Below, piece after piece: positions 28,933 through 31,941 of a stretch of DNA of 64,000 bases. Origin of the DNA: Sinimarinibacterium flocculans. Its GTDB lineage: Bacteria; Pseudomonadota; Gammaproteobacteria; Nevskiales; Nevskiaceae. The stretch is taken from contig NZ_QICN01000001.1 in NCBI RefSeq assembly GCF_003201205.1, positions 124,001-188,000 of the forward strand, given 5' to 3'. The notes beneath the pieces are model-generated. The model saw nothing but the letters and a program-made list of their open reading frames with translations, had not been told where the DNA came from and did no database searches. Each line of letters begins with the position of its first letter. Within the stretch, counting starts at the first letter, position 1. The position numbers and the translations under genes are program-made.

Positions 28933-29408
28933 CGCGGGCCTTCATCGGGCTCGGCGCGAATCTCGGTGATCCGCCTGCGCAGTTGCGCACGGCACTCGAG
29001 GCCATCGATCCGCTCGGGCGGATGCTCGCCGTCTCGCCGTTCTACCGCAGTGCGCCGATGGGGCCGACGGATCAGCCGGATTTCTGCAATGCCGTCTGCG
29101 CCCTCAAAACCGGACTCGCGGCGCCGGCACTGATGGACGCGCTGCTGGCGATCGAGCGCGGCATGGGCCGGCTGCGCACGGTCAAGTGGGGGCCGCGGCT
29201 GATCGATCTCGATCTGCTGCATGTCGACGGTGTGCACTGCGCCACCGAGACGCTGACGCTGCCGCATCCGGGCATCGGCCAGCGCAGCTTCGTGCTGGTG
29301 CCGTGGGCCGACATCGCCGCCGACACGACGGTACCGGGTGTCGGGCTGATCGACGAGGCGGCGCGGTCGGTCGATCGCACGGGTCTTCGACGCTGGGAGT
29401 CCGGTTGA
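28929..29408 (+). CDS. folK: 6-hydroxymethyl-7,8-dihydropterin pyrophosphokinase
   Basis: A 159-aa cytoplasmic enzyme that transfers pyrophosphate from ATP to hydroxymethyl-dihydropterin in folate synthesis. The start FIGLGANLGDP, the FCNAVCAL strand, ERGMGRLRTVKWGPRLIDLD with the conserved Arg and paired Asp, and LPHPGIGQRSFVL are all typical. ATG 28929 overlaps the pcnB stop. The panB promoter overlaps its stop codon. Confidence 0.96.
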   Translation: MTRAFIGLGANLGDPPAQLRTALEAIDPLGRMLAVSPFYRSAPMGPTDQPDFCNAVCALKTGLAAPALMDALLAIERGMGRLRTVKWGPRLIDLDLLHVDGVHCATETLTLPHPGIGQRSFVLVPWADIAADTTVPGVGLIDEAARSVDRTGLRRWESG

Positions 29409-29432
29409 ACCGCCGGTCCGATGGGCTACACT
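29405..29432 (+). promoter_or_regulatory. Candidate panB promoter
   Basis: TTGAAC (29405-29410) and TACACT (29427-29432) are 16 bp apart. The start near 29439 would give a leader of about 155 bases that contains both copies of the repeated GTGGGCCACC motif. Confidence 0.5.
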
Positions 29433-29468
29433 GCGCCGTGCTCCGCGCCCCGCGTGCGGATCGTCCGG

Positions 29469-29538
29469 GTGCATGCCTTGGTGGGCCACCCTTCGTATCA
29501 ATGCCCCGAATGCCGCGTGTATGTCTTGGTGGGCCACC
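29469..29538 (+). repeat. Two copies of a 22-bp motif in the panB leader
   Basis: Copy A (29469-29490) and copy B (29517-29538) agree at 20 of 22 positions; the core of B is GTATGTCTTGGTGGGCCACC. The 3' part GGTGG-G-CCACC is self-complementary. The same motif occurs twice before panD (31455-31476 and 31505-31526). Copy B and the second panD copy match at 25 of 26 positions. Function unknown. Confidence 0.8.
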
Positions 29539-29595
29539 GGCATTCCCCATCGGACGGCCTCCATTCCCGCATGGCCTCCGGGGAGCACTCAAGAC

Positions 29596-30531
29596 ATGGA
29601 TAACACGAAGCCTGTGAGCATCGCGGAGCTGCGCGACATGCGTGCGCGTGGCGAAAAGATCGCCTGCCTGACCTGCTACGACGCCAGTTTCGCGCTGATC
29701 GAGGACCGCGCCGGCGTGGACCTCGTGCTGATCGGCGACTCGCTCGGCATGGTGCTGCACGGCGGTCGCACGACGACGCCGGTCACCGTCGATGACATCG
29801 TCTATCACAGCCGCTGCGTCGCGCCGCACCTGTCGCGCGCCTTCCTCGTCGCGGACCTGCCATTCCTGTCCTACGCGACGCTAGAGCGTGCGCTCGATGC
29901 CTCGCAGCGGGTGATGCAGGAGGGCGGCGCCAAGATGGTCAAGCTCGAAGGTGGCCGCGAACAGGCCAGCATCGTCGAGTACCTGTCGGTTCGCGGCGTG
30001 CCGGTGTGCGCCCATCTGGGCCTGCAGCCGCAGTTCGTGCACAAGATGGGTGCCTTCCGCATCCAGGGGCGCGACGAGGCGGCTGCCGAGGCGATGCTCC
30101 ACGATGCGCGGGTGCTCGCCGAGGCGGGTGCCGATCTGCTGCTGCTCGAATGCATTCCCACCGAGCTGGGGGCGCGCATCGCCGCCGAGTCGCCGGTGCC
30201 GGTGATCGGCATCGGCGCCGGTCACCGGGTCGACGGCCAGATCCTGGTCCTGCACGACATCCTGCACGTCTCGCCCATGGTCACGCTCGGGCGCACGCCG
30301 CGGTTCGTGAAGAACTACATGACCTGTGCCGCGGAACAGGGCACGCCGGATATCGAGTCGGCGGTCCGTGCCTACGTCCGCGAAGTGAAGTCCGGGGCGT
30401 ATCCGGCGCCGGAACACCGCTTCGACGTGCCGGCGCCGGCGGCCATCCGGAACGACAAGGCCGGCAGGACGGCCCGCCCGGCGCTGAAGCGGCCGGCGCC
30501 AGCCGGCGTGGTGCGGAAACGGCGCAAGTGA
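29596..30531 (+). CDS. panB: 3-methyl-2-oxobutanoate hydroxymethyltransferase
   Basis: A 311-aa TIM-barrel enzyme making ketopantoate from ketoisovalerate and methylene-tetrahydrofolate, the first committed step to pantothenate. LTCYDASFALIEDRAGVD, LIGDSLGMVLHG, AFLVADLPFLSY, VKLEGG and CIPTELGARIA are the conserved blocks. The last ~40 residues form a basic, proline/alanine-rich extension (RFDVPAPAAI to VRKRRK) beyond the usual C-terminus. ATG 29596 is used; longer readings run through the repeat motif. GTGA overlap with panC. Confidence 0.96.
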   Translation: MDNTKPVSIAELRDMRARGEKIACLTCYDASFALIEDRAGVDLVLIGDSLGMVLHGGRTTTPVTVDDIVYHSRCVAPHLSRAFLVADLPFLSYATLERALDASQRVMQEGGAKMVKLEGGREQASIVEYLSVRGVPVCAHLGLQPQFVHKMGAFRIQGRDEAAAEAMLHDARVLAEAGADLLLLECIPTELGARIAAESPVPVIGIGAGHRVDGQILVLHDILHVSPMVTLGRTPRFVKNYMTCAAEQGTPDIESAVRAYVREVKSGAYPAPEHRFDVPAPAAIRNDKAGRTARPALKRPAPAGVVRKRRK

Positions 30532-31382
30532 TCACGCGTCACGCGATCACCGAGTTGCGCGCGCAGCTCGCTGTCTGGCGCGCGGCCGGCCAGCGCATCG
30601 CCCTGGTGCCGACGATGGGCAACCTGCACCGGGGCCATCTGCGGCTCGTGGAGCAGGCGCGGATGCAGGCCGACCGCGTCGTCGCGAGCATCTTCGTAAA
30701 CCCGCTGCAGTTCGGACCCAACGAGGACTTCGAGCGCTACCCGCGGACACTGGCCGCGGATCAGGCCTCGCTGCAGGACGCCGGGGTCGACCTGCTCTTC
30801 GCGCCCTCGGTCGCCGAGATGTATCCCCATGGCCGCGAAACGCTGAGCAGCGTGCACGTGCCCGGCGTGTCCGAGGACCTCGACGGCGCCCACCGCCCCG
30901 GACACTTCGACGGCGTGGCGACGGTGGTCAGCATCCTGTTCAACATCGTGCAGCCGGATGTCGCGCTGTTCGGCGAGAAGGACTACCAGCAGCTCGCGGT
31001 GATCCGGCAGATGGTGCGAGACCTGCACCTGCCGATCGAGATCGTCGGCGTGCCCACGCAGCGTGATGTCGACGGTCTGGCGTTGTCGTCGCGCAACCAG
31101 TACCTGAGCCCCGAGGAGCGCACTCGCGCGCCGGCGCTGCACGCCGCCCTGAAGGCCGTGGCCGCAGCGCTCGACGAGGGCCGCCGCGACTTCGAACCGA
31201 TCTCGGAAGAGCAGTGCAAGGTTCTGGCGAACAAGGGATTCGATGTGCAGTACCTGGCGATCCGCCGGCCCGATCTGGGGCTGCCGGATGCGACCACGCA
31301 GCGCTTCGTCGTGCTGGTGGCGGCGAAGCTCGGCCGGACCCGCCTGATCGACAACATCCAGGCCCCGTCGGGGCAAATATGA
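30528..31382 (+). CDS. panC: Pantothenate synthetase
   Basis: A 284-aa ligase that joins pantoate and beta-alanine via pantoyl-adenylate. The HIGH-like motif is VPTMGNLHRGHLRLVEQA; FVNPLQFGPNEDFERYPR, HRPGHFDGVATVV, FGEKDYQQLAVI and LSSRNQYLSPEER (KMSKS equivalent) follow. The GTG start (30528) overlaps the panB stop. Length is normal (E. coli 283 aa). panD follows after 175 bp with its own promoter region. Confidence 0.97.
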   Translation: MITRHAITELRAQLAVWRAAGQRIALVPTMGNLHRGHLRLVEQARMQADRVVASIFVNPLQFGPNEDFERYPRTLAADQASLQDAGVDLLFAPSVAEMYPHGRETLSSVHVPGVSEDLDGAHRPGHFDGVATVVSILFNIVQPDVALFGEKDYQQLAVIRQMVRDLHLPIEIVGVPTQRDVDGLALSSRNQYLSPEERTRAPALHAALKAVAAALDEGRRDFEPISEEQCKVLANKGFDVQYLAIRRPDLGLPDATTQRFVVLVAAKLGRTRLIDNIQAPSGQI

Positions 31383-31389
31383 CAGGCAT

Positions 31390-31418
31390 TTGATGCACTG
31401 CGGGAATGCCGCTAGACT
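31390..31418 (+). promoter_or_regulatory. Candidate panD promoter
   Basis: TTGATG (31390-31395) and TAGACT (31413-31418) with a 17-bp spacer, starting 8 bp after the panC stop. The predicted start near 31425 precedes a CRP-like palindrome. Confidence 0.6.
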
Positions 31419-31428
31419 CCGGCCTCCG

Positions 31429-31448
31429 CGTGTGATCGAGATCACGCG
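31429..31448. promoter_or_regulatory. CRP/Clp-like palindrome at the panD transcription start
   Basis: TGTGA-TCGAGA-TCACG (31431-31446) matches the CRP consensus TGTGA-N6-TCACA at nine of ten arm positions and is extended to CGTGTGATC/GATCACGCG. It begins about 6 bases downstream of the predicted start, a position where a bound regulator would more likely repress panD than activate it. Confidence 0.55.
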
Positions 31449-31454
31449 AAACGG

Positions 31455-31526
31455 GCGTATGTCTTAGTGGGCCGCCCGCCGTAGCCAGACCCCCAGGCCG
31501 TCGCGTGTATGTCTTAGTGGGCCACC
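31455..31526 (+). repeat. Two copies of the panB-type 22-bp motif in the panD leader
   Basis: Copy C (31455-31476) and copy D (31505-31526) share the core GTATGTCTTAGTGGGCC(A/G)CC. Spacing between copies is 50 bp, close to the 48 bp in front of panB. Copy D ends about 31 bases before the panD ATG. Confidence 0.8.
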
Positions 31527-31557
31527 GACGACCCCAAGCTCCCGAAGAGGCATCGCC

Positions 31558-31941
31558 ATGCAACTGCATATGCTCAAGTGCAAGCTGCACCGCGCCTGCG
31601 TGACCCACGCTGAACTCGACTACGACGGTTCCTGCGCCATCGACTCCAAGTTGCTGGAGCTCGCGGGCATCCTCGAATTCGAGCAGATCGACATCTACAA
31701 CGTCACCAACGGCGAGCGGTTCACCACCTACGCCATCAAGGCCGAACCGGGCTCGGGCATCATCTCGGTGAACGGCGCTGCCGCCCACAAGGCCCGCGTC
31801 GGCGACCGCGTGATCATCTGCGCCTACGCGACGATGGACCAGGCCGCTGCACGCACGCTCAAGCCGCGTCTGGTCTACCTCGATGCCCAGAACCGCGTCG
31901 AACGCACCGCCAACACGATTCCGGTGCAGCTCGCGGTGTGA
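31558..31941 (+). CDS. panD: Aspartate 1-decarboxylase (pyruvoyl type)
   Basis: A 127-aa proenzyme that makes beta-alanine for pantothenate. Self-cleavage between Gly24 and Ser25 in DYDGSCAID creates the pyruvoyl group; Lys9, Tyr22 and Thr57-region residues (NGERFTTY) and NGAAAH are conserved. ATG 31558 has GAAGAGG upstream. It is separated from panC by a 175-bp leader with a promoter, a CRP-like site and two repeats. The stop overlaps the following oxygenase gene as GTGA. Confidence 0.97.

Follow-up and report, generated by a model that had tools for sequence, protein, structure and literature searches.

A tandem hairpin before panB and panD in Sinimarinibacterium flocculans, apparently an undescribed control element of pantothenate synthesis in Nevskiaceae

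Why does one short motif stand twice before panB and again twice before panD in Sinimarinibacterium flocculans, ahead of two separate transcription units of pantothenate synthesis? The question arises from a stretch of 64,000 nucleotides (nt) of contig NZ_QICN01000001.1 (positions 124,001 to 188,000, forward strand), here called the window, to which coordinates refer unless another contig is named. Each copy looks like an RNA hairpin rather than a DNA operator, and the pair is apparently an undescribed control element setting the output of pantothenate and hence of coenzyme A (CoA). The preferred reading, given a probability of roughly 0.6, is that of a tandem structured RNA in the leaders of panB(C) and panD which would be bound by a trans-acting factor and control the start of translation.

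Four hairpin copies in two leaders

The 20-mer GTATGTCTTRGTGGGCCACC, searched with up to 3 mismatches, has four matches in the window, all on the + strand, two of which precede panB (29471-29490 with 2 mismatches, 29519-29538 with 0) and two panD (31457-31476 with 1, 31507-31526 with 0); 100 dinucleotide shuffles of the window contain 0 matches. The four copies proposed in a sequence-only reading of the window, as ranges that add 2 bases on the left of these matches, are found where it had placed them, the spacings of 48 and 50 bp within its pairs are exact and its remark that the window holds no other copy stands at this threshold. The genome-wide count that it recommended (4,401,070 bp) adds one site only, C3:160537 with 3 mismatches, which is taken as a chance match as it sits within long open frames and its reverse strand reads like what we take to be the start of an adenylate kinase gene. 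The covariance model R1 at E<=0.1 likewise retrieves four matches from the own genome, namely the four window copies.

The order in both leaders is promoter (predicted), 5' hairpin (P0), first hairpin (HP1, copy 1), linker, second hairpin (HP2, copy 2), Shine-Dalgarno sequence and start codon, with the following features:

29405-29432, + strand: predicted promoter of the panB leader, -35 TTGAAC at 29405-29410 and -10 TACACT at 29427-29432 with a 16-bp spacer, overlapping the end of folK
29443-29459, + strand: P0, 5' hairpin of the panB leader, recognized by folding z-scores, sequence not conserved
29467-29491, + strand: HP1 of panB, GGGUG, CAU bulge, GCCU-UGGU-GGGC, CACCC
29508-29545, + strand: HP2 of panB, with a long lower stem GAAUGCCG/CGGCAUUC that contains a bulged base
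29571-29603, + strand: possible upstream open reading frame (ORF) of 10 codons (MASGEHSRHG) whose stop overlaps the panB start; weak in this genome, with no clear Shine-Dalgarno sequence
29596-30531, + strand: panB, 311 amino acids, with Shine-Dalgarno-like GGGGAG at 29580-29585
30528-31382, + strand: panC, co-directional with panB and overlapping it by 4 nt, without an element of its own
31390-31418, + strand: predicted panD promoter, -35 TTGATG at 31390-31395 and -10 TAGACT at 31413-31418 with a 17-bp spacer
31428-31447, + strand: P0, 5' hairpin of the panD leader, 8 bp with a UCGA loop, recognized by folding z-scores
31453-31477, + strand: HP1 of panD, GGGCG, UAU bulge, GUCU-UAGU-GGGC, CGCCC
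31499-31530, + strand: HP2 of panD, lower stem CGUCG/CGACG
31545-31550, + strand: Shine-Dalgarno sequence AAGAGG of panD, identified by sequence
31558-31941, + strand: panD, 127 amino acids, starting 35 nt past the HP2 core

Altogether 72 distinct pairs were collected, of which 65 have panD (49) or panB (16) downstream, the other seven being six look-alikes and a second pair at locus L110 at the end of its stretch. Alignment A1 comprises 68 of 72 extracted copies, with the four of L042, a near copy of L041, omitted and one coding look-alike at L039 removed by hand, and aligns copies of the own genome and its relatives as an ungapped block of 43 columns. The base-pair tally covers 128 copies from 64 of the 65 pairs, near-identical relatives included. 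The core reads GGGYG, a YAU bulge, GYCU, a U-N-K-U loop, GGGC and CRCCC, with GGGC invariant in all 128 copies, the 5' strand of the upper stem being GUCU in 112 and GCCU in 16, and the bulge CAU in 60, UAU in 60, UCU in five, AAU in two and CAC in one.

Stem pair 13/31 is C-G in 61 copies, U-A in 35 and U-G in 29, with C-A, A-A and A-G once each; that U-G is tolerated and C-A nearly absent fits RNA pairing and not recognition of DNA. In the 68-copy alignment, the number of paired cells, the number of cells changed on both sides and the covariation score are reached by 0 of 500 shuffles and by no slid version of the structure. The covariation comes from pair 13/31, a few changes at pairs 9-11 and the lower stem of HP2; as the upper stem, apart from one U-G/C-G pair, scarcely varies, covariation provides no test of it. 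Compensatory and wobble-tolerant base changes, by which a structured cis-regulatory RNA is judged, are therewith present. The two hairpins differ in their flanks. HP1 has a nearly fixed outer stem of 5 bp without extension, and swapping partners does not weaken the pairing of its flanks (3919 of 5000 permutations as good). HP2 possesses a longer, co-varying lower stem that changes between species, whose flanks pair at -16.2 kcal/mol with the partner of the same copy and at -11.1 with those of other copies (equalled in 0 of 5000 permutations, kinship ignored).

The element is a conserved trait of the Nevskiaceae

The Nevskiaceae are water and soil bacteria. An order-wide search with R1 at E<=0.1 over 85 genomes, 58 in the family and 27 outside, detects the element in 56 of the 58 Nevskiaceae genomes, with at least two matches in 55 and at least four in 17, the latter being 9 of 11 genomes of the Solimonas group (g1, which also takes in Fontimonas and Sinimarinibacterium contigs) and 8 of 18 of the Nevskia group (g3). 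The two family genomes without it, G050 and G063, have no PanD match either; their completeness is 91% and 90%, and they may draw beta-alanine from another source, unless panD lies in an assembly gap. Inspection of the leaders of relatives, another check proposed by the sequence-only reading, shows the pair before panD at all 26 loci read (the window and 25 relatives) and before panB at 10 of them (the window, L036, L038-L043, L045 and L058).

Outside the family, the full pair occurs in one of the 27 genomes (G028), and two others have single weak matches (E 0.043 and 0.072). With filters off, a search of 13 PanD loci from other families of the order recovers the pair at G028 only and none at the other 12 (best E 0.67), two of which, L163 and L164, are weak PanD matches of 41-42% identity. 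In a sample of the class, 0 of 368 other genomes, at least three from the same order, match at E<=0.001 under strict filters. The tandem pattern, searched over 84,980 species genomes, has 69 matches in 61 stretches: 53 of them directly precede panD or panB, the one at L110 reaches the end of its stretch, and the remaining 15, each in a different stretch, are not accompanied by any pan gene there. Carriers are titled Solimonas, Nevskia, Hydrocarboniphaga, Panacagrimonas, Stagnimonas, Fontimonas, Sinimarinibacterium, Polycyclovorans, Stenotrophobium and Algiphilus, with some bins, for example L105, L115 and L134, under broader or other titles. A weakly scoring, altered pair stands before panD in G065 (L145), with extra bases in the bulge and loop of copy 2; as a natural variant it is useful for telling which positions matter.

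Counted over 48 of the 49 panD pairs (L134 has no upstream sequence) and the 16 panB leaders, near-identical relatives included, 62 of 64 leaders have a predicted promoter upstream of the pair. Its TANA[ACT]T box stands 5' of the element in 47 of the 48 panD leaders, where shuffles give a mean of 2.34 and at most 7, and 36-78 nt before the copy-1 core in 15 of the 16 panB leaders, where they give a mean of 0.32 and at most 2. P0 folds consistently and shows no conserved sequence, with a mean z of -2.48 in panD leaders (n=48; z<-1 in 44) and -1.69 in panB leaders (n=16; z<-1 in 12), against control values upstream of the promoter of 0.08 and -0.15, respectively. Between the panD promoter and HP1 of the window, TGTGATCGAGATCACG (31430-31446) resembles a CRP/Vfr site. 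Similar palindromes occur in several leaders; as many others carry unrelated hairpins there, the palindrome was rejected as a binding site and is read as the stem of P0.

Distance to the start codon and control of translation

The panD start lies 29-38 nt past the HP2 core in 48 of 49 pairs, with little beyond the Shine-Dalgarno sequence between the HP2 stem and the start, and the core-to-core spacing is 47-51 nt in 47 of 49. At panB the start lies 61-144 nt past the HP2 core, where starts are author-assigned, that is, hand-picked in-frame codons preceded by a Shine-Dalgarno sequence, which in the Nevskia group stand 12 nt before the alignment estimate in six of eight leaders, 3 nt at L058 and 18 nt at L110. 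In all eight distinct panB leaders of this group (L058, L082, L096, L099, L105, L110, L115, L119), an ORF of 20-38 codons begins 29-33 nt past the HP2 core and, in spite of its varying length, ends in a stop that shares 4 nt with the panB start (ATGA or GTGA). Seven of the eight ORFs open with ATGCA or GTGCA, like panD. Within the same genome the stretch after HP2 is alike between panB and panD in six of seven Nevskia-group comparisons (0-16 of 500 shuffles as good), the exception being L105 (393 of 500) and L110 standing outside this comparison. The simplest reading is that the Nevskia-group panB leader would be a copy of the panD leader including its start site, kept since the element acts on initiation at that distance. 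Six of the eight small ORFs begin with MQ, possibly as leader peptides or as relics of the panD start.

The distance to the panD start and the geometry of the Nevskia-group ORFs point to control of translation initiation, and from conservation and position we infer that expression is regulated. Each leader would start at its own promoter and fold into P0, HP1 and HP2, with the Shine-Dalgarno sequence and start codon next. Both cores, about 49 nt apart, would be gripped by a trans-acting factor, probably an RNA-binding protein that acts as a dimer and responds to a signal of the pantothenate/CoA pathway; two identical cores at near-constant spacing suit such a protein. Binding would alter the access of the 30S subunit to the start, which lies about 33 nt downstream. 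At panB of the Nevskia group, the small upstream ORF would preserve this geometry, and the overlap of its stop with the panB start would let panB follow by translational coupling.

Several observations weigh against this reading. In the alignment, the count of pairs changed on both sides is reached by 63 of 500 shuffles and tied by one slid version, and the count of further pair types is reached by 298 of 500 and exceeded by two slid versions. Folding energies of individual sequences do not stand out (z -0.55 to 0.04). The middle of the loop varies among the 128 copies, and many protein-bound hairpins are read through their loops. In the Solimonas group, only L038 (24 of 500 shuffles) among eight same-genome comparisons shows a likeness between panB and panD after HP2 beyond chance, and the ORF upstream of panB is irregular: L039, L043 and L045 have one with the 4-nt overlap, two of which start at GTG or TTG; in the window the ATG at 29571 gives an 8-nt overlap; the other four leaders show longer overlaps, in-frame extensions or nothing convincing. 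Finally, one candidate binder, the basic C-terminal tail of PanB, was dropped as a general explanation because, although present in several Solimonas-group genomes, it is missing from many carriers of the element. In the window (30400-30531) this tail of the 311-residue protein is rich in Lys and Arg; its length is very variable in the family, with many proteins ending at EHCF.

In Escherichia coli, pantothenate supply is likewise controlled at PanD, by the CoA feedback of PanZ, which the 2015 account, in the part consulted, describes as the first regulatory mechanism of pantothenate synthesis and which, unlike the RNA element here, is a protein-protein control (PMC4410942). A match to PanZ (PF12568) was found in none of 19 Nevskiaceae genomes tested. 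The sole carrier genome outside the family has a weak PanZ-family match (L168, G028:C122:49334-49495; 23.5 bits, cut-off 22) in an open frame of 398 amino acids.

The main rival to a dimeric protein is direct sensing of a metabolite, in which the hairpin or the pair would be an aptamer for CoA, pantothenate, pantoate or beta-alanine that alters access to the start. Such a riboswitch is possible and deserves attention, at odds clearly below even; stated as a tandem-hairpin riboswitch directly sensing CoA or a metabolite of the pantothenate pathway, it becomes somewhat more doubtful. The core is compact and nearly invariant with its 3-nt bulge, only pan genes are found under the element, and a 2022 review, in the part consulted, reports no riboswitch known for CoA (PMC9971707). 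On the other side, the element is confined to one family and one further genome. As a candidate expression platform, the 5' strand of HP1 (GGCGUAUGUCUU) may pair with the Shine-Dalgarno and pre-start region (AGAGGCAUACGCC before AUG), and the minimum-energy fold joins the two in some of 43 panD leaders, including the window, L037 and L052. Over 42 dereplicated leaders this pairing reaches -11.9 versus -10.2 for shuffled pre-start regions (0 of 300). The triplet directly before the start is GCC in 33 of 48 panD leaders (49 pairs less L134, near-identical relatives included), against 4 of 25 panB genes without the element, 5 of 41 panC, 2 of 40 pgi and 0 of 30 folK genes, and UACGCC occurs in 9 of the 28 leaders whose HP1 has GGCG-UAU versus 0 of the 20 others (author tally; several of the nine are close relatives). 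The pairing is, however, not specific to the leader (581 of 5000 permutations do as well), HP2 exceeds shuffles to a similar degree, the pairing with the panD pre-start surpasses that with the folK pre-start in only 17 of 30 comparisons and none of the small upstream ORFs of the Nevskia group has GCC before its start, so that HP1/pre-start pairing as expression platform is tentative. Two similar tandem hairpins near a ribosome-binding site are also known from the guanidine-II riboswitch and the thrS operator of E. coli, the conserved letters and genes of which differ from those of the present element, with no sign of kinship.

The pan motif and the less probable alternatives

The pan motif (RF01749) consists of small hairpins in tandem that stand before operons containing panB, panC or the aspartate decarboxylase gene; in the part of its description consulted it is proposed as a binding site for a dimeric protein (PMC2864571). 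The present element shares the tandem occurrence and the position upstream of panB, panC or panD operons, and some letters of its 5' strand (GGGCG, UAU) are also shared. A diverged member of RF01749 is nevertheless improbable. Each pan hairpin carries a bulged A on either strand; here the 5' strand has a single 3-nt YAU bulge and the 3' strand has none. Unlike the pan motif, the element has a nearly invariant GYCU/GGGC upper stem and, in the collections searched, is found only in Nevskiaceae and one genome of another family of the same order. RF01749 does not reach its gathering threshold in the window, the own genome or L060, with the Bacillus subtilis control matching, and the leaders give no match to it even at E<=10, nor does the genome at E<=0.001. 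An Rfam scan at gathering thresholds finds three tRNAs only in the window and nothing at L060; at E<=10, 29380-31600 gives six unrelated sub-threshold matches without the pan motif and 31410-31570 none.

For comparison, pan RNA was searched in two sets of genomes (0 of 5 and 0 of 119) and in 120 genomes of the class of a Chloroflexaceae-titled genome, where three match, one above the cut-off. R1 gives no meaningful match at these three pan-motif loci (best E 0.2). The 3-kb loci (L165, L166, L167) show only weak tblastn matches to PanB, PanC and PanD of the window (E 0.13 or worse). As the score falls short, the two bulged A are missing and R1 misses the pan-motif loci, the element, on present tests, would work like pan RNA without being a member. 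No description of it was found in the literature searched, a search that left subscription journals, bioRxiv and motif databases beyond Rfam outside.

The sequence-only reading had left the choice between a shared operator, an RNA element and a dispersed repeat. Its RNA element is the one upheld, by the wobble-tolerant covariation, the lower-stem complementarity of copy 2 and the position after the predicted promoter; the other two are improbable. A DNA operator, at which a transcription factor would sit on direct repeats downstream of the start site, has in its favour the direct repeats and their nearly constant spacing beside predicted promoters, but is improbable given that G-U and not C-A is tolerated, that copy-2 flanks match their own partner, that in the pairs examined the copies are on the coding strand and downstream of the promoter box, and that the near-palindrome GGTGGGCCACC is not kept in relatives. 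Control by a leader peptide from an AUG within each hairpin is very improbable: bulge and first stem base do form AUG in most copies, and the first such AUG of the window is in frame with panB (ORF 29473-30531), but the UAGU loop of 49 of the 128 copies stops the frame at the third codon, five copies read UCUG, and it is the stems, not the codons, that are preserved. A functionless dispersed repeat or recent duplication is barely credible, for although two near-identical pairs lie 2 kb apart and the Nevskia-group panB pair looks copied from the panD leader, the core is invariant family-wide while linkers and P0 diverge, the genome holds no other copies and pan genes follow most tandem matches.

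For the Nevskiaceae, this is a compact and strongly conserved RNA tied to two pan genes only, in a family that has cultured members and, as far as tested, no PanZ match. If a second tandem hairpin, unrelated in sequence, arose at the genes of the pan motif, the shared layout would itself be informative, and a search for a common kind of partner or ligand could take in both the pan motif and the present element.

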